A stretch of DNA of 64,000 nt. It comes from Dehalococcoidia bacterium (GTDB lineage: Bacteria; Chloroflexota; Dehalococcoidia; Bin125). Under the pieces are notes generated by a model that worked only from the letters and a program-made list of their open reading frames with translations, did no database searches and was not told the origin of the DNA. Shown piece by piece: positions 6,857-62,782 of the stretch (position 1 is its first letter; every line of letters starts with the position of its first letter). The position numbers and the translations under genes are program-made. The stretch covers positions 310,001 to 374,000 of the forward strand of contig JAJDTU010000002.1 in assembly GCA_022826965.1 (NCBI GenBank), read 5' to 3'.

Positions 6857-7750
6857 ATGCGCGACTTCGAAGGCAAGACGGCGGTCGTCACGGGCGGGGC
6901 GAGCGGCATGGGGCTGGCGTTCGCGCGTCGCTTTGCGGCCGAGGGCATGAACGTCGTCCTCGCTGATATCGAGGCCGACGCGCTCAACACCCAGGTGACA
7001 CGACTCGAACAGGAGGAGCGCAATGTGCTGGGCGTGATCGTCAACACAATGCGCCGCGAAACGCTGGAGAATCTGCGCGACGAGGCGATCGATCGGTTCG
7101 GCAACATTCATATTCTCTGCAACAATGCCGGCGTCGCCAGTCTCGACGACGCGGGCATGACCTCAGGAGAAATCCTGGGACCGTGGGATGTTCCCGACAG
7201 CACCTGGGACTGGGTCATGGGCGTCAACTTCTGGGGCGTGCTCTACGGCTGCCAGGTGTTCATCCCGCACATGCTCGACCACGGCGAGGAAGGCCACATC
7301 GTCAATACGGCCTCGGTGGCCGGCTTGATTCCGGGCGGCGGGGCGTACGGCGTGTCGAAGCATGGCGTGTTGGCCCTGACCGAAGGCATCTATCAGAGCT
7401 TCGAGGCGATGGGCGCCAAGCTCAGCGCGTCCGTCCTCTGCCCCGGGCTGGTCAACACCAACATCGGACACGCCGAACGCAATCGACCCTCCGAATTCGG
7501 AGCACCCGTCGATCCCAACGACGAGGCCAGGGAAGGACTGCTGTCGATGCTCAGCGGCGGCATGGATCCCGAGCAGGTCGCCGGCATCGTGTTCGACTCG
7601 ATCGTCGAACAACGCTGCTACATCCTGCCTCACACATCGTGGGACGACTTCGTCCGGGGACGAGTCGACAACATCCTTGCCCGCGGCGCGCCGCTGACGC
7701 TCGATTTTGAAGAGTTGATGCGACGCCGAGCGGCGGGCGAGCAGGTCTAG
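6857..7750 (+). CDS. SDR family oxidoreductase (array B, copy 1)
   Basis: A 297-residue SDR and the first of four tandem near-copies. It begins MRDFEGKTAVVTGGASGMG, with ATG at 6857 behind GGGTGGAG; an in-frame ATG at 6845 lacks a proper ribosome-binding site. It has the TGGASGMG cofactor motif, CNNAG, the catalytic Ser (NTASVAG) and AYGVSK. This group is longer than the 250-residue norm because of a helix after the active site (AERNRPSEFGAPVDPND) and a C-terminal domain with YILPHTSWDDFVRGRV. These inserts are typical of extended-substrate SDRs acting on hydrophobic molecules, but the exact substrate is unknown. Confidence 0.92.
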   Translation: MRDFEGKTAVVTGGASGMGLAFARRFAAEGMNVVLADIEADALNTQVTRLEQEERNVLGVIVNTMRRETLENLRDEAIDRFGNIHILCNNAGVASLDDAGMTSGEILGPWDVPDSTWDWVMGVNFWGVLYGCQVFIPHMLDHGEEGHIVNTASVAGLIPGGGAYGVSKHGVLALTEGIYQSFEAMGAKLSASVLCPGLVNTNIGHAERNRPSEFGAPVDPNDEAREGLLSMLSGGMDPEQVAGIVFDSIVEQRCYILPHTSWDDFVRGRVDNILARGAPLTLDFEELMRRRAAGEQV

Positions 7751-51713: not shown

Positions 51714-51790
51714 GGGGCATTCGTCTAGCGGCCAAGGACACCGCCCTCTCAAGGCGGAGATCAGGGGTTCGAATCCCCTATGCCCTACCA
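51714..51790 (+). tRNA. tRNA-Glu (anticodon CTC), integration target
   Basis: A cloverleaf with acceptor GGGGCAT / ATGCCCT (first pair G-U), anticodon loop CTCTCAA giving CTC, T loop TTCGAAT, discriminator A and an encoded CCA. Its last 13 bases overlap the stop end of the serine recombinase gene on the other strand, an arrangement typical of an integrated element whose integrase reads into its attachment tRNA. Confidence 0.92.
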
Positions 51791-53367
51791 AACGGCACCA
51801 TACTGCGAACTCCTTCGCTCAACTCCACCTCCGCCACATCCGCCCCCCGCAGCGGCCCGTCCTGCGGCGTTGGAATCGTGTAGCGAATCACCGCTCGGCC
51901 TGGTCGGACAGAGATCCGCTTCACGAACGACCGGATGAACGCCTTCGTCTCGGTCACATCGCTGGTCTTCAGGAACTCGCTCATCTCCGCTGCAAACCTG
52001 GCCACCACATCGGCGCTGTCCAGCAACTCCCGCCGCTCGGCCAGAACCGAACGGGCTTCCTCCGCTGATTCCTCCAGCTGAGCTTGACGCTCCTGGTGCA
52101 CTCGCAGCCGCGGCAGAATGTCGTTCACCTCCATGTCCGAGCTCTCGACGATGTGCCAGAGCCGATCCATTTTCCGCCGCACCTCTTCCAGTTCCGCCTC
52201 GATCGTCTCCAGCCGTTCTCGCTCCTCCCGAGCGACGCCGTCCATTTCTTCGTCCAGCATCTTCACCAACTCGCGGATATTGCCCTCTGTGAGGATGTGA
52301 TCCCTGATCTGATCGATGATCAGCCGTTCGAAGCGATCTGCGTTCAACCTGGGGGTCTTGCAGCTCTTGCTGCCGCCGTTGAGGATCGACTGACAGACGT
52401 AGTAGCTGTACTTGCCGCCCTTCGCCTCTGCCGCGGTCAAGGCCTTGCGGCAGAGCTCGCAGCGAACCAGGCCGCTCAGCAGGTATCGGCTCGCCGCTTG
52501 GCGCGGATGCACCCGCTCCGGCGCGCGCGATTGCAATGACCGACTGACCCGCTCGAACTCCGCTCGCGACACGATGGCGGGAAACGCTTCTTCCACGCGC
52601 ACAGGCGGAGCCCCGCTCTTGTCCGTCAGACCCCAGACCAGGGTGCCCGTGTACGCCTCTTTGACCAGCAACTTGTGGATCGTGGTCTTGAGCCACTTCT
52701 TCCCGCGCGGACTCGGTATGCCTTCGGCATTCAGAGTCCTGGCAATCTCCAGGACGCTCTCACCTGCGAGCGCCATGTCGAAGATCCTGCGCGCCACGGA
52801 GTCGGCTGGCGGATTCAGTTCCAGGCGCGGCCGCTTCTTCGGCCCGTCCTGCACATGAACTCGCCGATAGCCGTAGGGGACGTAGGGGCTGACCCAGAAT
52901 CCTCGCGAGGCGGCCTCCCGCATCCCTCGCTTGACCTCCTGAGCGAGATTCTCCGAATAGAACTCGTCCACGCTCTCGATGATCGCCTCCATTAGCTTGC
53001 CGGTCGGCGTGTCGTCGGCATGCTCGGTGATCGATGTCACGCGGATCCCGCGCCGGCGGAGCATCGACTTGAAGGCGACGGCGTGCTCACGCTTGCGCGT
53101 GAAGCGGGAGAACTTCCAGACCAGAATCTCCTGGAATGGCGCGTCGGCCTGGGCGCCTTCGTCCAGCATCTTGCGGAACTGGGGCCGGTCAGCGACGCGC
53201 CCGCTCTCAGCCTCGTCGATGTACTCGCGCACAACTAGGTACCCGTTTCGCTCAGCAAAGTCGCGCAGCGCGCGAAGCTGCGCGGAAACGGAGAGGTCAA
53301 CGTCCTGCCGGTCCGAGGAGACGCGTGCGTACAGAGCAGCGGTAGTTGGCTCCTGTGCTTGGTGCAT
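51778..53367 (-). CDS. Large serine recombinase (integrase)
   Basis: A 529-residue large serine recombinase. The catalytic Ser17 is in LYARVSSDRQ, followed by the resolvase fold, a recombinase DNA-binding domain (YGYRRV, PRGKKWLKTTIHKLL), a zinc ribbon (CELC and CQSILNGG plus SC) and a long coiled coil (EEMDGVAREERERLETIEAELEE). ATG at 53367 follows GAGGAG; a longer frame upstream has no family likeness. The last seven residues are coded by the tRNA-Glu 3' end, so the stop arose from integration next to it. Confidence 0.93.
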   Translation of the reverse strand: MHQAQEPTTAALYARVSSDRQDVDLSVSAQLRALRDFAERNGYLVVREYIDEAESGRVADRPQFRKMLDEGAQADAPFQEILVWKFSRFTRKREHAVAFKSMLRRRGIRVTSITEHADDTPTGKLMEAIIESVDEFYSENLAQEVKRGMREAASRGFWVSPYVPYGYRRVHVQDGPKKRPRLELNPPADSVARRIFDMALAGESVLEIARTLNAEGIPSPRGKKWLKTTIHKLLVKEAYTGTLVWGLTDKSGAPPVRVEEAFPAIVSRAEFERVSRSLQSRAPERVHPRQAASRYLLSGLVRCELCRKALTAAEAKGGKYSYYVCQSILNGGSKSCKTPRLNADRFERLIIDQIRDHILTEGNIRELVKMLDEEMDGVAREERERLETIEAELEEVRRKMDRLWHIVESSDMEVNDILPRLRVHQERQAQLEESAEEARSVLAERRELLDSADVVARFAAEMSEFLKTSDVTETKAFIRSFVKRISVRPGRAVIRYTIPTPQDGPLRGADVAEVELSEGVRSMVPFGRA

Positions 53368-53759
53368 GTTCTGGAGTCTCCTCGGAAATAAGTAGTACTC
53401 GGGGTTGTTTCGGAGCTGCGAGATGCGGCGCTGTGATTGCCGCTGGACCTCCCTGTTCCCTGTTCGAAACATCGTAGCGTGACAGCGCGGGTGAGGTGGG
53501 GTGTTTCGACACTGAACAAGCGCCGTCTCACACGGACGACCGGTCTTGATCGCAACCCCGACTCGGAAGCCGCTGGTAAGAGAATGGGGCCGAATCGGTA
53601 CGCGGCCGTGCAGTGGCGAAAAGGAAGGGCGCGACGCTCTGAAGCGCCGCGTGAGAAGTGTTGAGACGCTTAGGAATACACTCCAGCGCCTTGGATCTCC
53701 TGGCAGGGTCAGAAGGGACGTGTACGTCGCCGCGCACGGCTTCTGCCTGGAGGCCGCAA
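53368..53759. other. Gene-free stretch upstream of the recombinase
   Basis: About 390 bases between the recombinase and the PIN-like gene. It presumably holds the recombinase promoter and part of an attachment region. The segment GCGCGACGCTCTGAAGCGCC has internal dyad symmetry and GTGTT/AACAC-like arms surround 53660-53685. Short frames here lack codon bias and ribosome-binding sites, so I call no gene. Confidence 0.4.
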
Positions 53760-54734
53760 TCATGAAGCTTGGGCAAGATCATCCGTGTCGGCGACAAGGA
53801 GATACTCCTCGGGCTCCAACACCACGATGCCGAGATGGTCATTGAGGCCGTCGCCGTAACGGCGAAGCTTCTTGTCCCAGGTGAGGAAGATGTCGCGCTT
53901 GTTGATGAAGTGGGAGTGGATGTGGTCCCAGTCCTTCCAGTCGCGATTCAGTTCCCGGTCCTGCTTGGTGGTCAGGGCGAAGTAGGCATCGGCGAACTCC
54001 CTGCTCCCGGGCAGGTCAATCCCCGCTCGCCAGTGGTGAGGACGAATGACCGAGCGCATAACCTCAATACCCAGATTCGGAAGATTCGCGATTTCATCGG
54101 ATAGCGGAGGCCAGGGGACATCCTCAAAGACCCGCCCGGTCACCCGTACTGAGGCGGATTGGCGCTTGGCAAGTTCGAGCAGCCGCCGAACGATTTCAAC
54201 TTTGCTCCTTCTTCGCCACAGTTGGAACAGCACGGCTGTGTCCAAGGTCAACGTTGGCAGGCGCTCGACCGTCAAGTCGAACTGTCCTGACTTGCGCATC
54301 ACATATGTCCGCCGCTGGCAGCCGGAGGGCAGGTCGATCACTGCGCTGAACTGGACATCCGGCCCGCCGTTCAACGACATCGCCAAAGGCAACCTTCGGA
54401 CCATCGGGAAGAAGTGCTCCTCCACTTCACGGTCGACGAGTTGTTCAGCCTGCCGCCACCGTTGTTCGTGCCAGGCGTCGTGCTGCTCCTGGCTGAGGAG
54501 AAAAATCGGATTGGCGTCGATAGTCCTGCCATCGAGTTGCTTGAGCGCATCCGCCTTCATTTGCTCCCTGATCTCTTGAAGCTCGGGGAACAGATCAACC
54601 TCCCCATAACTCATGTGGAAGCGAACGTTGTCAACATTCCTAACCTGCATCTGGTTCGCGAGCCGGATGAACTCGCCCCATTCATCACCGGCGTACGAGA
54701 CAAGAGGATGGTCGATTTGGAAGCGAGGCGACAC
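53760..54734 (-). CDS. PIN-like domain protein of the accessory island
   Basis: A 324-residue protein. The N-terminal half is unlike any family I recognise. The C-terminal part (about 160-315) has PIN-like features: an Asp in TLTLDTAVLFQL, a second acidic cluster in DWKDWDHIHSHFINKRD, and the FLTWDKKLRRYGDGL segment, where the conserved Asp of a PIN RNase is expected. It is likely a toxin-like or defence ribonuclease, by inference. The gene sits alone between the recombinase and the toxin-antitoxin pair. Confidence 0.6.
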   Translation of the reverse strand: MSPRFQIDHPLVSYAGDEWGEFIRLANQMQVRNVDNVRFHMSYGEVDLFPELQEIREQMKADALKQLDGRTIDANPIFLLSQEQHDAWHEQRWRQAEQLVDREVEEHFFPMVRRLPLAMSLNGGPDVQFSAVIDLPSGCQRRTYVMRKSGQFDLTVERLPTLTLDTAVLFQLWRRRSKVEIVRRLLELAKRQSASVRVTGRVFEDVPWPPLSDEIANLPNLGIEVMRSVIRPHHWRAGIDLPGSREFADAYFALTTKQDRELNRDWKDWDHIHSHFINKRDIFLTWDKKLRRYGDGLNDHLGIVVLEPEEYLLVADTDDLAQAS

Positions 54735-55158: not shown

Positions 55159-55881
55159 ATGACGGCCAACAACCCGGAACTCGATTCCTCCATCCGCCAA
55201 TTGGATCGCTCATTCAACGATGAGGAGTTGGTCGATCTGCTCCTCGCTCTGGCCCGTCGGCCGGATCGGGATGCACGGAACATGCTCTTCCACCTGGCGG
55301 CGGGTTGGCCCGCCGAAGGCTCGGAGTTGCTCGACGCCGCAGCCACGGTAGCTGCACGGCACGAAGCATGGACCGGCGACGACGTTCGGCTCAAGCGCTG
55401 GCTCACAGTCCTGTGCCATAGCCGCGAGCTCGCGGCGCAACTCGGGGGCGACCCGCAGCACGTACTGGAAGGCCTCGAACGTTCAGCGCTGGATCAGGCT
55501 CGGCTGCAGGGTGAGGCGACTGAATCGATCTGGCGTGAGCCGATGCTGAAGCCGGGCGATGCTGCGCTGGCCCTCGGTGCTCGCGCAACGAACCGCGAGA
55601 AGGTGCGCCGCCTGCGCGAACGTTCGTCCTTGCTCGGCCTCCCCTCCGGCAATGGCTTCCTCTACCCGGCGTTTCAGTTCGATGCCGTTCGGCGCCGGCT
55701 CTTCCCCGAGGTCATCGAGATCAATGAGCTGATCGATGCAGCGGGCGATCCGTGGGGCGTCGCATCGTGGTGGATGGGTGAGAACGCCAGGTTGGCGGAG
55801 CGTCCGGTCGACTGCGTGGGAACCGACCGCGCCTCAGAGCTGTTTGAGGCCGCTGGAGCGCTCGTCGAGCCGGTCGGATAG
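55159..55881 (+). CDS. Antitoxin-like protein with MbcA/ParS/Xre toxin-binding C-terminus
   Basis: A 240-residue protein. The C-terminal segment INELIDAAGDPWGVASWWMG resembles the MbcA/ParS/Xre toxin-binding domain that caps RES toxins. The first 110 residues are an alpha-helical region of unknown family (DDEELVDLLLALARRPDRD-like). It is longer than the usual 150-residue antitoxins, so an additional N-terminal domain is present. The RES toxin gene follows 6 bases later, the standard antitoxin-first order. Confidence 0.75.
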   Translation: MTANNPELDSSIRQLDRSFNDEELVDLLLALARRPDRDARNMLFHLAAGWPAEGSELLDAAATVAARHEAWTGDDVRLKRWLTVLCHSRELAAQLGGDPQHVLEGLERSALDQARLQGEATESIWREPMLKPGDAALALGARATNREKVRRLRERSSLLGLPSGNGFLYPAFQFDAVRRRLFPEVIEINELIDAAGDPWGVASWWMGENARLAERPVDCVGTDRASELFEAAGALVEPVG

Positions 55882-55887
55882 CCCACG

Positions 55888-56553
55888 TTGTCGCCGCACC
55901 AGGTGCCACCACCGCAGTACGACGGCGCGCCCGCCTCACTCCTGCTGACCGCAGGCACGAAGCTGACGCGGATTCACGGCGCTCAGTTCGCTGTGACCGA
56001 TTTCAACCCGATGGTGGCGCGCCACCCGCTCCGGGGCGGCCGCTTCGACGCCACGCCAGATGATTCCTACGGATTCCTGTACGCGGCGAACGACGACGCC
56101 ACGGCCGTCAGCGAAGTGCTGCTGCGCGATCTGCCGCTCAATGAACGCGGGGCGCGTCTAATGCCGCGCGCACGGCTTCGGAATCTGCGCATCGGCTGGC
56201 TGACGACAACGCGCGACATACAGCTCGTCGATTTGCGCTCCGGACAGAACCTGGCCGCGATCGGGCAAGACACCTGGCTGACGACCGGGCCGGCGAGGGA
56301 CTACGAACTCACTCGGGCTTGGGCCTCGGCGATCCGCGACTGGGCGCCGTGGTGTGGCGGATTGACTTGGCGCTCGCACCGCGAACCGGAGGGCTTCGCC
56401 TACGTCATGTTCGAAGATCGCGTGCCTGACGATTGCCTGGCCGAGCTCTCAGTCGACGTTCTGCTCACCGGTGAGGATCAACGTCTCGACGACGGAATCG
56501 GCCGGTTGTATGTCGAACGAATCCTAGAAGCCTACCGAGTGGCTCTGATTTGA
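55888..56553 (+). CDS. RES-domain toxin (NAD-targeting)
   Basis: A 221-residue RES toxin with a TTG start at 55888, six bases after the antitoxin. The hallmark GGRFDATPDD near residue 51 and the tyrosine and Glu (LYAANDDATAVSEV) are in place. RES toxins such as MbcT and ParT attack NAD+ or phosphoribosylate targets and are neutralised by their MbcA/ParS-type partners. No mutation of the key Arg is seen. Confidence 0.87.
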   Translation: MSPHQVPPPQYDGAPASLLLTAGTKLTRIHGAQFAVTDFNPMVARHPLRGGRFDATPDDSYGFLYAANDDATAVSEVLLRDLPLNERGARLMPRARLRNLRIGWLTTTRDIQLVDLRSGQNLAAIGQDTWLTTGPARDYELTRAWASAIRDWAPWCGGLTWRSHREPEGFAYVMFEDRVPDDCLAELSVDVLLTGEDQRLDDGIGRLYVERILEAYRVALI

Positions 56554-57073: not shown

Positions 57074-58297
57074 CTAGCCCGCAAATGTCCTCCGATGAAT
57101 GGGGTCGCTTCGGAGACTTAGAATCCGGCTTGCAACTTGATCGACTGAGGCTTCAAGTTCTTTGATCGAGCCGTCCAGATTGACGGTGGCAACTTCGAGT
57201 CGCTTGTCTGAGTGCCGCACTTCGAATGATGCTCCACGTCCCTCGGCATAGACCAGCAAGGCGGCTGGCAGGTTGAGCGCGGTGGCGTAAGCCAGAGCCT
57301 GGTAGAGGTCGGCGTTGCGGACGGGTGCGTCTTCCGCGCTCTTGTACTTCGCGTCGCCAGCGAATACGCAGATGTCGCCCTCCCACCACGTGAAGTCCGG
57401 TTTGAGCGTGACATTCCTCGCACGATCCAGATAGATCGTTGAGCCTCCGCTGTCGTCCCCGCGGAAGGACCGTTCGGACAGCCTCAGCGATCGCCTGAGT
57501 GCGCGCGTGAGAAACTCCTGGAAGATTGTGTTCATGTCCATGAGGAAGCCAGAGGCGCGAACCTCGCCGCGCGGCAGATCGAAAGCGGTATGACGCAAGA
57601 TCAACCGAGATAGCTCAACAACCTCGCGGTAGTGCAGGTTGAGTCGATCGAAAGCGATCGCCGGCACGTCGGTGCCTCCGAACTCGACCCACTCAACGTT
57701 GACTAGGGTCGCCTCGATCCGGCCCAGGCTCTGCCGCCAAGTAGGGCTGTCGAGGCGAAGCATGCCGAGTCGTCTGGCGGCGCCCCTCACTAGGCGATTG
57801 GCGAGAATGTCCTCTGTGAAGTCGTCGTAACGCACCTCGACCGGCAGTGGAACGTCGTGATGCCGGCGTACCTGTTCGGCGAAGTCGATCCGGCCGCGCA
57901 CCGTGTTCAACGTTTCTTCCCTGCCGCGATAGCCGTGCAGCAGTCCTCGCGAGAACGCTCGCTGCGCAGCCGAGATGAATGCGGGAACGACCACTTCCAT
58001 AGGCATCGGCGCGTCGGCGAAATCGAACGACTCGACGCGGAAGTCGACCGCGTTAATCGCTTGCGAGGCCAGGTACAGGACGCGCCCGATGGGGAGTTTG
58101 GGCTCGATCCGAATGGACAGATCGTCGATCTCGAGCGCACCGATCGTCGAACTCGGAGTCAGGATGTAGTCGTCCCGCCTTCCGTGGGCCGGGGCGACGG
58201 AGAGCGACGGAATCGCCGCACGGAGCGCGTCTCGCTCAGCCATGGTCAAAGGTAGCGGCCCAGAAGGCTGGTACTCGGTCAGCTCAATTGCGCGCAT
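57074..58297 (-). CDS. mcrC: McrC, 5-methylcytosine restriction nuclease subunit
   Basis: A 407-residue McrC. A PD-(D/E)XK core lies in the C-terminal part: TLKPDFTWW, then DAKYK near residue 316 and the following QALAYATAL helix. The start ATG at 58297 overlaps the mcrB end by 14 bases; an alternative at 58315 would add six residues. It cuts DNA after translocation by McrB. Confidence 0.9.
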   Translation of the reverse strand: MRAIELTEYQPSGPLPLTMAERDALRAAIPSLSVAPAHGRRDDYILTPSSTIGALEIDDLSIRIEPKLPIGRVLYLASQAINAVDFRVESFDFADAPMPMEVVVPAFISAAQRAFSRGLLHGYRGREETLNTVRGRIDFAEQVRRHHDVPLPVEVRYDDFTEDILANRLVRGAARRLGMLRLDSPTWRQSLGRIEATLVNVEWVEFGGTDVPAIAFDRLNLHYREVVELSRLILRHTAFDLPRGEVRASGFLMDMNTIFQEFLTRALRRSLRLSERSFRGDDSGGSTIYLDRARNVTLKPDFTWWEGDICVFAGDAKYKSAEDAPVRNADLYQALAYATALNLPAALLVYAEGRGASFEVRHSDKRLEVATVNLDGSIKELEASVDQVASRILSLRSDPIHRRTFAG

Positions 58298-60281
58298 CGC
58301 GCTCGCCGGACGCATCGCCTTGCCGGTCAGCGGGGTCGCTGGAGGAGACAGTGGCTCTGAGCACTTCGAGGGCGAACTCACTGAGCCGGTCGGGCTCGCC
58401 GTAGAGCTGTTCCTCGATGTAGGGCAGAACGTTGTGTTGCCAGACGAGTTCGAGTTGCTCCTCATCGAGCGCCTCGCGCATGAAGTAGCTGGGGCCGATC
58501 GCGGCGTCGCGGTTGTCGAGCTTGCGGTTTGCCTCTTCGACAACATCCGCCACCCAAGCCAAGTCCTTTGCGTGCCGGTCGAGCCACCGGCTGAGCAATC
58601 CCTTGATCGGGTCGCTGTCGGGATGGAACTCAAGGAAGTAAAAGCGTCGGCGCAGGGCGAGGTCGATCAGCGCGATCGACCGGTCGGCCGTGTTCATCGT
58701 GCCGATGATCCGCAGGTTGTCGGGCAGGCTGAGGGGCTCGTTCGAGTACTGCAATCGGATCGGCTCGTCGCGGTATTCGAGCAGGAAGTAGAGTTCGCCG
58801 AACACCTTAGCCAGGTTGCCTCGGTTGATCTCGTCGATTACAAGAAAGTACGGGTTGCCGGGATCATCGTGGGCTAGTTTCGCCATCTCAAGCAGCGGTC
58901 CATTGCGTAGCTCGAAGCTCGCGCGGCCTTGGTCATCGAGCGTCGGGCGGTAGCCCTGGACGAAGTCCTCGTAGGCGTATGAGGGATGGAACTGCACCAG
59001 CCGTACGCGAGCGTCGGAACCTCCCAGATGCTGGGCCAGCTTGCGCGCGACGTAGGTCTTGCCTGTGCCCGGCGGCCCCTGCAAGATGACCTGCCGCTTG
59101 TCTTCCAGAAGCCGTCTGAACGTCTGCAAGAACTCGGGGTCTAGTAGCAACTCGTCGGCAAGGGCATCGAGATTGGGATTGACTGAGTTGCTGCGTACCG
59201 AACCGTTGCTCTCAGCAGCAGAGTGCTGATATATCATCCAGACGAGCGACTGAGCTTCGAGCCGGTCCGCGGGCCGCTCGAGGTTCAATGCCGGCGCGCG
59301 CTCGACCAACCGATCCAGGAACTTGAGTGCGTGCTCATACGTCTCGGAATGGTCCGCGCCAGACCGTGGGCGCGGGTGACGAGCGGTCTGGTACGCCTTG
59401 TCGAAGGATGACCAAGTGTACGGAGGGTGGTCCGCGCCCAGGGCCATCAGCAAGGCCGAGACTGCTCGCAAGGTCGTGCCGACCTGCGCTTTCTTGAACG
59501 TCTCGCTCTCCGGGATCTGCTCGACCAAGACCCGGATTCTCGCACCGACGGGCTGGGCTTCTTGGCTCCAGAACTCCCGTATGGCTGCGAGGGAAGCAGC
59601 CGGCTCCGTCCGGAACCATTCGTACAGCGGCTGACCACGGCGCCAGTCCAAGGGACTGCCCTGCACGGTGAGCGCGTCCTGTACTAAGCCGGACCACTGG
59701 CGGTCGCCGCGTATGGCCGCTTCGCGGGCGCGTTCAAGCCCAGCGATCAACTCGCGCTTGTACCGCAACTCTTGCTCATCCAATTGAGCAGATTCGAGGT
59801 ATGGCTGCGCGCGGCCGAGGTACTCGTCAATCCCGCCCCATGTCAACTCCCGAACGTGCTCCTCCGCTCCAGCCAGCCGCACTTTGTGCACTGTCAATGG
59901 ACTCCGGATCGAGGCGACCAGCTCATCGCCGAAGGCGCTATCCGGAACGTCGGCGGCCAGCCAGGTGATCGGCCGAATATGGAATGGGTTTGTGTCAGGC
60001 CGAAACTCGTAGTCCCCTGAGATCTCCCCGATGTGGACTCTCGATTTCGTGAAGGGAACCGCCACTAGCGTGCCGTGTTCCAACTCATCGTAGAAGCGCC
60101 ATAGTTGGTGGAAACCGTTCTGGTGTTCTCTCTGGAGCGCAGCCTTCGACGAGACGGTGTGCAGGTCCTTGGCATAGCCGTAGCTGATGCCGACGTGAGA
60201 ATGCTCTAGGAAATCGGCTTCGAAGACACCGCCCTTCCCCGGGAATACCTTCCAAAGCGCCACAGTTCCCTCCTCGGCCAT
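58284..60281 (-). CDS. mcrB: McrB-like AAA+ GTPase with N-terminal modified-base reader-like domain
   Basis: A 665-residue AAA+ motor. Walker A GPPGTGKT is near residue 400, Walker B is FLVIDEINRGN, and the McrB-specific MNTADRS is present. The N-terminus (about 1-105) resembles a PUA/EVE-like domain (GISYGYAKDL, GTLVAVPFTKSRVHIGEISGDY), a fold that reads methylated bases. A linker of about 280 residues follows. Coupled with mcrC, it should restrict modified foreign DNA. The 5-methylcytosine target is known for E. coli McrBC, not shown here. Confidence 0.9.
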   Translation of the reverse strand: MAEEGTVALWKVFPGKGGVFEADFLEHSHVGISYGYAKDLHTVSSKAALQREHQNGFHQLWRFYDELEHGTLVAVPFTKSRVHIGEISGDYEFRPDTNPFHIRPITWLAADVPDSAFGDELVASIRSPLTVHKVRLAGAEEHVRELTWGGIDEYLGRAQPYLESAQLDEQELRYKRELIAGLERAREAAIRGDRQWSGLVQDALTVQGSPLDWRRGQPLYEWFRTEPAASLAAIREFWSQEAQPVGARIRVLVEQIPESETFKKAQVGTTLRAVSALLMALGADHPPYTWSSFDKAYQTARHPRPRSGADHSETYEHALKFLDRLVERAPALNLERPADRLEAQSLVWMIYQHSAAESNGSVRSNSVNPNLDALADELLLDPEFLQTFRRLLEDKRQVILQGPPGTGKTYVARKLAQHLGGSDARVRLVQFHPSYAYEDFVQGYRPTLDDQGRASFELRNGPLLEMAKLAHDDPGNPYFLVIDEINRGNLAKVFGELYFLLEYRDEPIRLQYSNEPLSLPDNLRIIGTMNTADRSIALIDLALRRRFYFLEFHPDSDPIKGLLSRWLDRHAKDLAWVADVVEEANRKLDNRDAAIGPSYFMREALDEEQLELVWQHNVLPYIEEQLYGEPDRLSEFALEVLRATVSSSDPADRQGDASGERDARN

Positions 60282-61175
60282 GCGAACGGAGGCGTGTTTC
60301 GGATGTTGCTGCTCGACCGCTCGCGGGCCGCAAGCCCCCGCCTCGTCCGTTCCGACCTCGGCCGTGCATCCCCGGAGTGAGCCATCCGGTCTGTAGACCC
60401 GAATGAGCCGATCGCTCAGTCGCGAGGTCCTTCAGGTGAAGGCAGAAGGCGGCCAACGCGGGGGTCAGTCTATCGCCATGACTGCGTTCGTCCGCTGCGC
60501 AGTCCACAAGGCAGAACCACACGGACCCCTGCGGCCCAGTCGTGGGGAATCGTGACGTGGATCGGCGAGTTGTCGACGGTTCTCGTCGTGTGATCCATGA
60601 CCGTGGGAGAATTCGACCGGCGGCGCGTAGTGTGCGCGACGCATTTCGAAACGACGTTGCTACACGCCACGCAGCCGGTCGGCAAGACACAGGGGTTGGA
60701 TTCGCGGCCCACACGATTGAAGCCGATAGTGACCGAGCGCTGTGTACCCCAGGGGGCGTGATCGTGGCTGGCAGGTGGTCGACGCCGATGTCGATCGGTC
60801 GTCCACATCCCAAACGCGATTCGTTGAAATGTGGATGAAATATTGATCGGGTCCCTGATCGATATGCGATAGTATCGAATCAGTGGCTGAGGTGCGGAGT
60901 GAACCGAAGCGACGAATGAAGACCGCCAGCGCTACGGAGGCGCCAGCCGATTAGTTGACCAAACCAAAGAGACACGAAGAAGCGCCGCTCGGGGATAGTT
61001 TGGCGACTGACCCGAAACGGCGCCCAGAATGGAAGCGTCTGTGCCTTCCACGGGCATTCTACACCCAAACTCCGACTTAAGGTCAACCTCGGGAACCCCG
61101 CAGCGGTCCCGCGCCCCTCCACGTGCAGCACAGAATAGAACCCGCCCCCACCGGTGAGGGTGAGGACGGGCCCGT
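60282..61175. other. Gene-free stretch with dyads and a foldable pseudoknot-like segment
   Basis: Nearly 900 bases with no gene supported. An imperfect palindrome lies at 60840-60865 and a perfect one (CGATAGTATCG) at 60867-60877. At 60982-61023 GCGCCG and TCGGG pair with CCCGA and CGGCGC to make an 11-bp hairpin; its loop GTTTGG (60998-61003) can pair with CCAAAC at 60959-60964, which would make a pseudoknot. AGTTGACC at 60953 may pair with GGTCAACC at 61081. Together with the tRNA-like gene that follows, this may be one structured transcript; short frames look non-coding. Confidence 0.45.
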
Positions 61176-61254
61176 GCCCTCGTAAGCCTCAGTCGGACGA
61201 GAGCTGCAGCCTGCTAAGCCGCGTGCGTGGGTTCGAATCCCACCGAGGGCACCA
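61176..61254 (+). tRNA. Non-canonical tRNA-Ser-like gene (anticodon GCT, no long variable arm)
   Basis: The acceptor GCCCTCG pairs perfectly with CGAGGGC, followed by discriminator A and an encoded CCA. The T arm is GTGGG-TTCGAAT-CCCAC. The anticodon loop CTGCTAA gives GCT (serine codons AGU/AGC) but the stem GCAGC/GCCGC has one mismatch. The variable region is four bases, whereas real tRNA-Ser has a long arm that seryl-tRNA synthetase needs. The D arm is elongated with a bulged A (AGCCTC / GAGAGCT). It may be a pseudo-tRNA, a mobile-element tRNA or a regulatory RNA. Confidence 0.6.
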
Positions 61255-61319: not shown

Positions 61320-61724
61320 ATGTTTGAGTTCACGCAGAGCCTGCGAAACATGACCGACGCCATCGGACAACTGGACGAGCTGCTCGGCGATCGATTCATC
61401 AGACCGACGATCTTCGATATCAGCGCGTACAGCGTGTACGCCGAGTGGGGCAGAGACAACTCGACCCAGCCTACGCGTGACTCTGTTTGGCTGTGCGCTT
61501 ACGAAGACCGCGTAGTGATGAATGCGAACTTTCGGGACGGATGGCCGGAGTCCGGCGCGCCGGAGTTCAACGCAGAGCAAGCGAAGGAGTGGCTGCTCGA
61601 CCTCACTCGAGACTGGAAGTGGGACTTCGAGCGCAACGGATCAATGACATCAGAGAGCATCCGGCGTACCCCGGGGCAGCGTCATCGCGCCAACCTTGAG
61701 GGGTACCGCCCTCAGCGGAGATAG
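61320..61724 (+). CDS. Small orphan protein of the island
   Basis: A 134-residue soluble protein, MFEFTQSLRNMTDAIGQLDELL then an aromatic-rich core. I do not recognise the family. ATG at 61320 has GGGAAGGA nine bases upstream; a longer frame from 61227 passes through the tRNA tail and is not used. The tail is basic (RRTPGQRHRANLEGYRPQRR). Composition fits the accessory region, and function is unknown. Confidence 0.55.
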   Translation: MFEFTQSLRNMTDAIGQLDELLGDRFIRPTIFDISAYSVYAEWGRDNSTQPTRDSVWLCAYEDRVVMNANFRDGWPESGAPEFNAEQAKEWLLDLTRDWKWDFERNGSMTSESIRRTPGQRHRANLEGYRPQRR

Positions 61725-61764: not shown

Positions 61765-61974
61765 ATGGCAGAGAATGTCCACGTCGAGACCAAGCAAGAT
61801 GGCAATGTGGTCAGCTTCCTTGTCCGGCCACCCGGCGAAACCGCTCTCAGGGACACCGGACTATTCATTGACACGACGAACACAAGCCCTGCAATGCTGC
61901 CAGGACTCGTCGAGTCAATGAAGGGGACGGTCGCTGCGAACTGGCGCGGTCTCGTCGGCCCTGGTCAGCGCTAG
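61765..61974 (+). CDS. Small orphan protein next to an IS insertion
   Basis: A 69-residue protein with AAAGGAAG before its ATG. It has the sequence MAENVHVETKQDGNVVSFLVR and is hydrophilic, with no motif I know. It ends exactly in CTAG, the last bases being TAG; this CTAG is one of the two copies flanking the IS5-family element, so the insertion did not change its stop codon. Function unknown. Confidence 0.5.
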   Translation: MAENVHVETKQDGNVVSFLVRPPGETALRDTGLFIDTTNTSPAMLPGLVESMKGTVAANWRGLVGPGQR

Positions 61975-62782
61975 GCTGCCGCCACCAGTTCGCGGCTTGA
62001 CGAGATGTGCCACCAGGCGAGTTGGACGAAGGACTCGTATCGCGAGGCCAGCTTGGCGTAGCGCGTCGCAACCCCTCGGAACTGCTTGAGGTCGGCGAAC
62101 AGGTTCTCGACCTTGTGTCTGGTCCGGTAATTCTCCTCGTCGTACTCGAACGGCACCTTGCGCCTGCTGGTCGATGGGATGGTCGCTACAAGGTCACGCG
62201 AGGAGAACAGGTCGCGGAGCGGGCCCGAGTCGTAGGCCCTATCTGCGATCAGTTCTCCCGCCTCTACGCCGTCGAGAAGTGCCGGTACCAAGGGACTCTC
62301 GGCGGCGTTTCCGGGATGAATCGTGAACCTGACGAGTTTGCCGTTGCGGTCAACCATCGCCATCAGCTTCGTGGTCAACCCGCCTCGACTCGCTCCGATG
62401 CACTGAGCGTGCCGTGAGTCGGGCGGGTTGGTCCTTTTCCCTGGGTGGGATGGACGTGGCGAGCGCCAACCGCGTGCTGGTGCGTCTTGATGTAAGATCC
62501 GTCGACTTGAATGCTGCGCGTGTCGATTTCCCCCTGAGTCGTCTCGAAGATGCGGTCAAACACGCCGGAACTCGACCACCTGCGGAAGCGCTGGTAGACC
62601 GTGTTCCACTTGCCAAACTCCGCCGGCAGGTCGCGCCACGGCGCTCCCGTTCGCACCACCCAGAGGATGTCCTCGAGCGCCTTGCGGTTGTCGTACCCGG
62701 TGCGGCCAGGGTCGCTGGCCTTCCCTGGAAGCAGCGGTTCGATCCGTTCCCACTGCCTGTTTGTCAACCTACGTCGCGACAT
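61971..62782 (-). CDS. IS5-family transposase, two frames joined by -1 frameshift
   Basis: The upstream frame (62375-62782, 135 residues) carries the first catalytic Asp (SIQVDGSYIKTH). The downstream frame (61971-62378) has the second Asp (LIADRAYDSG) and the R(3)E(6)K motif in RHKVENLFADLK. Neither is complete alone. The slippery heptamer GGGAAAA at 62441-62435 is in the right phase (CAG GGA AAA) and a -1 slip gives a continuous protein through CIGASRGGLTTK, the usual IS5 sequence. The final stop codon is formed by the flanking CTAG. Confidence 0.85.

Follow-up and report, generated by a model that had tools for sequence, protein, structure and literature searches.

Can a tRNA gene that carries a serine anticodon be a serine tRNA when its variable loop has four bases? 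Bacterial seryl-tRNA synthetase (SerRS) needs the long variable arm of tRNA-Ser. The window analyzed here, a stretch of 64,000 nucleotides from a Dehalococcoidia bacterium, contains a gene in which the anticodon GCT is found over a body of a different kind.

Structure and descent of the GCT tRNA

ARAGORN calls one tRNA gene at 61176-61254 on the plus strand, labeled tRNA-Ser with the anticodon GCT at 61213-61215. The initial annotation had suggested a covariance model as a check, and the Rfam model RF00005 matches the same positions with 29.4 bits, barely passing the gathering score of 29. This makes it the bottom scorer among the 49 tRNA matches of the 3.0-Mb genome. Split by hand, the sequence reads GCCCTCG-TA-AGCCTCAGTCGGACGAGAGCT-GCAGC-CTGCTAA-GCCGC-GTGC-GTGGG-TTCGAAT-CCCAC-CGAGGGC-A-CCA (Table 1). 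The stems and the CCA end are those of a member of the tRNA family (acceptor 7/7, anticodon 4/5 and T 5/5 pairs), and U33, A37-A38, G18-G19, the T loop and the CCA are all intact. The D arm is three bases longer than in tRNA-Arg in the alignment; on folding, its sides AGC-CTC and GAG-A-GCT form six pairs around a bulged A or, alternatively, four ordinary ones and a bulged C. Thus, ARAGORN, Rfam, the sequence and the folding bear out the earlier description of a GCT anticodon, a four-base variable loop and an over-long, bulged D arm.

An ordinary long-arm tRNA-Ser(GCT) is present in the same genome (C4:602278, L034), so the contrast with the short loop of the 61176-61254 tRNA is a valid one. 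The four-base loop does not agree with the long variable arm by which bacterial tRNA-Ser is defined. Together, the short loop, the Arg body and the true tRNA-Ser(GCT) elsewhere in the genome rule out a serine tRNA proper.

We compared the gene with the DNA of 100 genomes (99 relatives and its own), and it is the tRNA portion of the query that finds matches. The tRNA-Arg(TCT) genes of relatives came first, with 84% over 68 bases, and tRNA-Arg(CCG) genes were also matched. When only the tRNAs of its own genome were compared, the top four were all tRNA-Arg (CCG, CCT, TCT and TCG). In the alignment, the anticodon arm reads CCTTCTAAGC in tRNA-Arg(TCT) and CCTGCTAAGC in the GCT tRNA; within the loop the sole difference is base 34, a single change from TCT to GCT. 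Judged by its sequence, the GCT tRNA is a tRNA-Arg by descent, nearest to the tRNA-Arg(TCT) of relatives.

The published determinants of arginine identity in bacteria are A20, C35, U/G36 and A/G73 (PMC9976931), and the GCT tRNA keeps them all (A20, C35, U36, A73). With these kept and the SerRS long arm missing, ArgRS rather than SerRS is the likely charging enzyme, and arginine the expected amino acid, if the tRNA is charged at all. The anticodon GCU pairs with AGC and AGU, which are serine and not arginine codons, and these are the codons that an arginine-charged GCU tRNA would read. Body isotype and anticodon therefore disagree, as expected of a dual-identity tRNA. The suspicion that SerRS should not charge this tRNA, leaving it uncharged or mischarged, was right, and the Arg descent and determinants point to ArgRS.

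Other odd tRNAs were seen in this genome. Two long-arm tRNAs have a discordant anticodon, ACC (Gly) at G000:C13:75097-75180 (L033) and AGC (Ala) at G000:C14:336950-337036 (L040). In addition, the genome's own tRNA-Arg(TCT) has a degenerate second copy of 33.9 bits about 950 bases on (G000:C4:491232 and C4:492191; L002, L044), which looks as if it were the leftover of a small insertion.

Genomic setting and upstream region

The order of the locus is gltX, tRNA-Gln, tRNA-Glu(CTC), a large serine recombinase, a RES-domain pair, McrBC, the GCT tRNA, two small orphan ORFs and an IS4/5 transposase. The tRNA-Gln/tRNA-Glu region is retained across the genus and the recombinase side only in part of it. 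A second genome of the genus (G005) shows the same order from gltX through tRNA-Gln, tRNA-Glu and the recombinase to the RES pair, and again at a helicase (73.2 kb), and between them different DNA replaces 57.0-73.2 kb, indicating that the GCT tRNA sits in strain-specific cargo. This comparison confirms that the tRNA is carried in an accessory block, as had been proposed, here the cargo of a serine-recombinase hotspot. In the genus, the hotspot beside tRNA-Glu(CTC) combines the conserved RES pair with a variable cargo slot (51778-53763 and 55159-56553 in the window; L338). There was no synthetase gene among the scanned cargo proteins, and the ORF directly after the tRNA had no relative among 385 other genomes of the class. 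The relatives lack the flank of the tRNA, save for two matches that are 24-36 bases long.

Table 1. Features of the GCT tRNA and of its surroundings, in positions of the window
Feature	Position	Strand	Evidence
tRNA-Glu(CTC)	51714-51790		abutted by serine recombinase
Large serine recombinase, hotspot marker	51778-53763	-	Pfam Resolvase, Recombinase, Zn_ribbon_recom
Conserved pair, upstream ORF and RES-domain protein, toxin-antitoxin-like	55159-56553	+	Pfam RES 3.9e-20; synteny in G005
McrC-like 5-methylcytosine restriction component	57074-58633	-	Pfam PF10117 5.8e-48
AAA ATPase, McrB-like partner	58284-60281	-	Pfam AAA_5 1.2e-22
15-pair hairpin	61138-61173	-	fold z = -4.71 minus vs -1.48 plus; terminator-like shape, weak T tail
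Class I tRNA gene, anticodon GCT, tRNA-Arg-type body	61176-61254	+	ARAGORN; Rfam RF00005 29.4 bits; nearest sequences tRNA-Arg
Acceptor stem 5' half GCCCTCG	61176-61182	+	7/7 pairs with CGAGGGC 61244-61250; sequence, folding
D arm AGCCTC-AGTCGGAC-GAGAGCT, A20 retained	61185-61205	+	alignment, folding
Anticodon arm GCAGC-CTGCTAA-GCCGC, one A.C mismatch (4/5 pairs)	61206-61222	+	alignment
Variable loop GTGC, four bases, without long arm	61223-61226	+	sequence
T arm GTGGG-TTCGAAT-CCCAC, T stem 5/5 paired	61227-61243	+	sequence; Rfam alignment
Discriminator A	61251	+	sequence; folding
CCA encoded in gene	61252-61254	+	sequence
Orphan ORF directly after tRNA, 134 aa, without family	61320-61724	+	family scan; class genome search
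IS4/5-family transposase, two overlapping frames	61971-62782	-	Pfam DDE_Tnp_1, DUF4096

A foldable region with a hairpin had been described before the tRNA. A strong hairpin is found at 61138-61173, directly before the gene, and none of 200 shuffles was as stable. It belongs to the minus strand only; read as plus-strand RNA, its G-U pairs turn into C-A mismatches. According to the predicted folds, the transcript of the tRNA therefore does not contain this hairpin. On the minus strand, the closest clear gene ending toward it is the transposase, some 800 bases off. The claim of folding on the strand of the tRNA did not hold, since the plus strand at 60953-61177 (225 bases) was no better folded than its shuffles (z = -0.30) and the best of its sub-windows, 60953-61051, reached z = -1.63. 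In the Rfam scan no family other than tRNA came above its gathering score. For this shuffle-level folding and the lack of an Rfam family we rejected a structured upstream RNA on the tRNA strand. No promoter-like site was found for the GCT tRNA.

Class I GCT tRNAs in other genomes

The GCT tRNA was missing from the 99 relatives in the DNA search and from 392 other genomes of the class in a pattern search. The pattern used was a class I tRNA with the anticodon loop CTGCTAA, applied also to viral and genome collections, and for these collections the figures given here are from the matches listed. In the class it was found in 2 of 393 genomes, its own and an attR-like half in G149. In the phylum the same pattern appeared in 5/400 genomes, and at the other four places ARAGORN calls no GCT tRNA. 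The 421-base stretch had no homologue in phages or plasmids, and the 79-base tRNA alone showed general tRNA similarity only when compared to them. The exact core pattern gave no close relative in viral contigs. Homologues in other islands, the search for which had been suggested as a check, were therefore not found in the relatives, the class genomes, phages, plasmids or viral contigs.

Most of the matches listed are of three other kinds: tRNA-Ser genes whose variable arm contains CTGCTAA, attR-like halves, and phage elements in which an ordinary 5' half is missing and which may be YrlA-like. Also among the matches listed are a few clean class I GCT tRNAs, in Acidiferrales (L262, 70.9 bits), Ammonifex (L274, 60.9 bits) and viral contigs (L088 and L106, the former with 64.8 bits). 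Further clean cases among them, with no bit scores of their own, are Pleurocapsa L208, L213 and Proteobacteria L226. The nearest panel tRNAs of the clean cases were mostly tRNA-Arg; the comparison panel was itself rich in tRNA-Arg, so that this likeness is a lead and not a test. We give a small chance to the idea that the gene of the window is a mobile mistranslator, that is, a member of a thinly scattered but recurring group of Arg-like class I tRNA(GCU) in bacteria and viral contigs that would be charged with arginine and insert it at AGC/AGU.

Annotation pipelines name such genes tRNA-Ser from the anticodon alone. Should arginine prove to be the amino acid carried by the Arg-like GCU tRNAs of viral contigs and unrelated bacteria, these tRNAs would mistranslate serine codons as arginine in nature, in a way comparable to tRNA-ProX. 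The value of the window itself is likely smaller, a single decaying tRNA in a variable block of the genome, and the cleaner cases elsewhere are better test subjects than the tRNA at 61176-61254.

Among the phage elements, one of the form ...GATACTTCTCCTGCTAAGAGAGAGAC...GGGTTCGAATCCC... is recurrent in viral contigs (L093, L098, L118, L129, L132, L136, L138 and L152) and occurs also in L269, L296 and L306. It was under the Rfam tRNA cut-off in the three that were scanned (L093, L098 and L136); L136 gave a weak YrlA match of 24.7 bits (gathering score 69) together with a weak tRNA match. Its 26-base core fits eleven viral stretches. From their sequences, these elements are possibly divergent Y-RNA-like mimics of tRNA. 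One more viral contig (L151) combines a long array of tRNAs with a permuted tmRNA at 7254-7478 on the minus strand (RF04321, 71.4 bits).

Decay or function, and comparison with known systems

The explanation that we find probable, with considerable reservation, is that the GCT tRNA is a formerly working and dispensable copy of a tRNA-Arg that is losing its function and is used weakly or not at all in translation. A complete class I tRNA gene descended from an arginine tRNA, most likely tRNA-Arg(UCU), would have arrived with the strain-specific cargo of the hotspot. A change of base 34 from U to G, if this was its direction, would have made the anticodon GCU, single extra bases would have enlarged the D arm, and selection on the copy would have been relaxed. 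The cell does not need this one, since a normal tRNA-Ser(GCU) with a long arm and arginine tRNAs of its own are already present. The lowest of 49 scores, the anticodon-stem mismatch, a low predicted pairing, the lack of a promoter-like site and the lack of an orthologue in the genomes searched most likely reflect decay. The predicted pairing of the anticodon stem was 0.03 against a median of 0.77 for the tRNAs of the genome, with several real tRNAs as low. Against decay speaks the state of the stems. Compared with the nearest tRNA-Arg genes there are 8 (or 7) stem substitutions, by which three pairs have had both members replaced and only one is broken, and random substitution preserves the stems that well in 0.14% or 0.27% of the trials. 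Neutral drift alone, starting from the known relatives, would not be expected to keep them so intact. The extra bases are also confined to the D arm, whose stem they can lengthen, a pattern less like random decay. The intact U33, A37-A38, G18-G19, T loop and CCA likewise count against decay. Stems kept beyond the random expectation suggest that most of the divergence arose under selection, which leaves the loss undated. Since the comparison is with known relatives and not with the actual ancestor, all of the compensated changes may be older than the decay.

The well-kept stems with their compensated changes would also fit a working dual-identity tRNA, charged by ArgRS and decoding AGC/AGU, which would be carried as cargo with a role in stress or defense through Ser-to-Arg mistranslation, like tRNA-ProX of Streptomyces. 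Every listed bacterial determinant of arginine is present, clean Arg-like class I GCT tRNAs occur elsewhere (L262, L274, L208, L226, L088/L106), although a reference panel rich in tRNA-Arg may favor that match, and PMC10365949 gives a bacterial precedent for dual-identity tRNAs. However, the tRNA score is poor, the anticodon stem has its mismatch, the scanned cargo proteins include no synthetase, there is no conservation in the relatives and replacing serine by arginine at AGY codons should carry a high cost. On balance, we allow such a function a small chance. An attR-type remnant, in which the 3' part of a tRNA gene is left by an integrated element, could be suspected from the location in a hotspot and from the false tRNA calls that such remnants commonly yield (PMC9897764); a probable example, with tRNA in the 3' half only, is found in the class genome G149 (L319). 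Yet here the 5' half is also tRNA (acceptor 7/7, T8-A9, D arm), the only two tyrosine integrase matches of the genome are both on other contigs and the 3' end of tRNA-Glu is not repeated in the region examined. With both halves tRNA and no tyrosine integrase on the contig of the window, we rejected this improbable origin.

The initial annotation had considered a regulatory RNA that resembles a tRNA and is structured upstream of it, which could be of the Y-RNA (YrlA) type or, with the upstream 220 bases, tmRNA-like. The CTGCTAA loop and the T arm do recur in many viral contigs, one of them with a weak YrlA match, but those elements are without the ordinary 5' acceptor and D arm that the GCT tRNA has. 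The proposal finds no support in the data: only tRNA exceeds its Rfam gathering score, the upstream folding on the same strand is at the level of shuffles, the flank is not conserved in relatives and the genome has no TROVE/Ro60 gene. A Y RNA was rejected for the lack of this gene and of an Rfam YrlA match, and we hold a regulatory RNA of either type to be very improbable. If an ordinary tRNA-Arg gene had been misassembled or misread, this would account for single extra bases in the D arm, and the assembly, with its 14 contigs, could be a metagenome bin. Still, at least the substitution at base 34 and the broken stem pair would also have to be errors, and a tRNA-Arg copy is not expected in this cargo, which makes an error hardly credible. 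Decay of a dispensable tRNA-Arg copy thus remains our preferred explanation.

Compared with known systems, the GCT tRNA has in common with YrlA and the bacterial Y RNAs (RF02553) a T arm and an anticodon-like arm, similar in sequence to those of the phage elements, but has the usual cloverleaf layout, acceptor and D arm included, in a genome without Ro60. Like the tRNA fragments and attR remnants that are mistaken for tRNAs (PMC9897764), it is a low-scoring extra call in an accessory region, and unlike them it has both halves and a full acceptor stem. With the canonical bacterial tRNA-Ser(GCU) it shares only the anticodon, as it has no long arm and its body is not of the serine type. The tRNA-ProX of Streptomyces and Kitasatospora (tRNA-ProA, -ProN and -ProT) are described in PMC10365949 as dual-identity tRNAs with tRNA-Pro bodies, a partner ProRSx gene and proven mistranslation. 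The GCT tRNA resembles them in being class I and in joining the body of one isotype to the anticodon of another, and differs by its Arg body and by being known from sequence alone, with no partner gene seen in the scanned cargo and no orthologue in the genomes searched. From bacterial tRNA-Arg(UCU) it differs in G34 instead of U34, the extra D-arm bases, the A.C mismatch in the anticodon stem and the low score; with it, it shares the layout of the acceptor and T arms, the D-loop GGA(C) with A20, the loop CTNCTAA, the discriminator A and the short variable loop.
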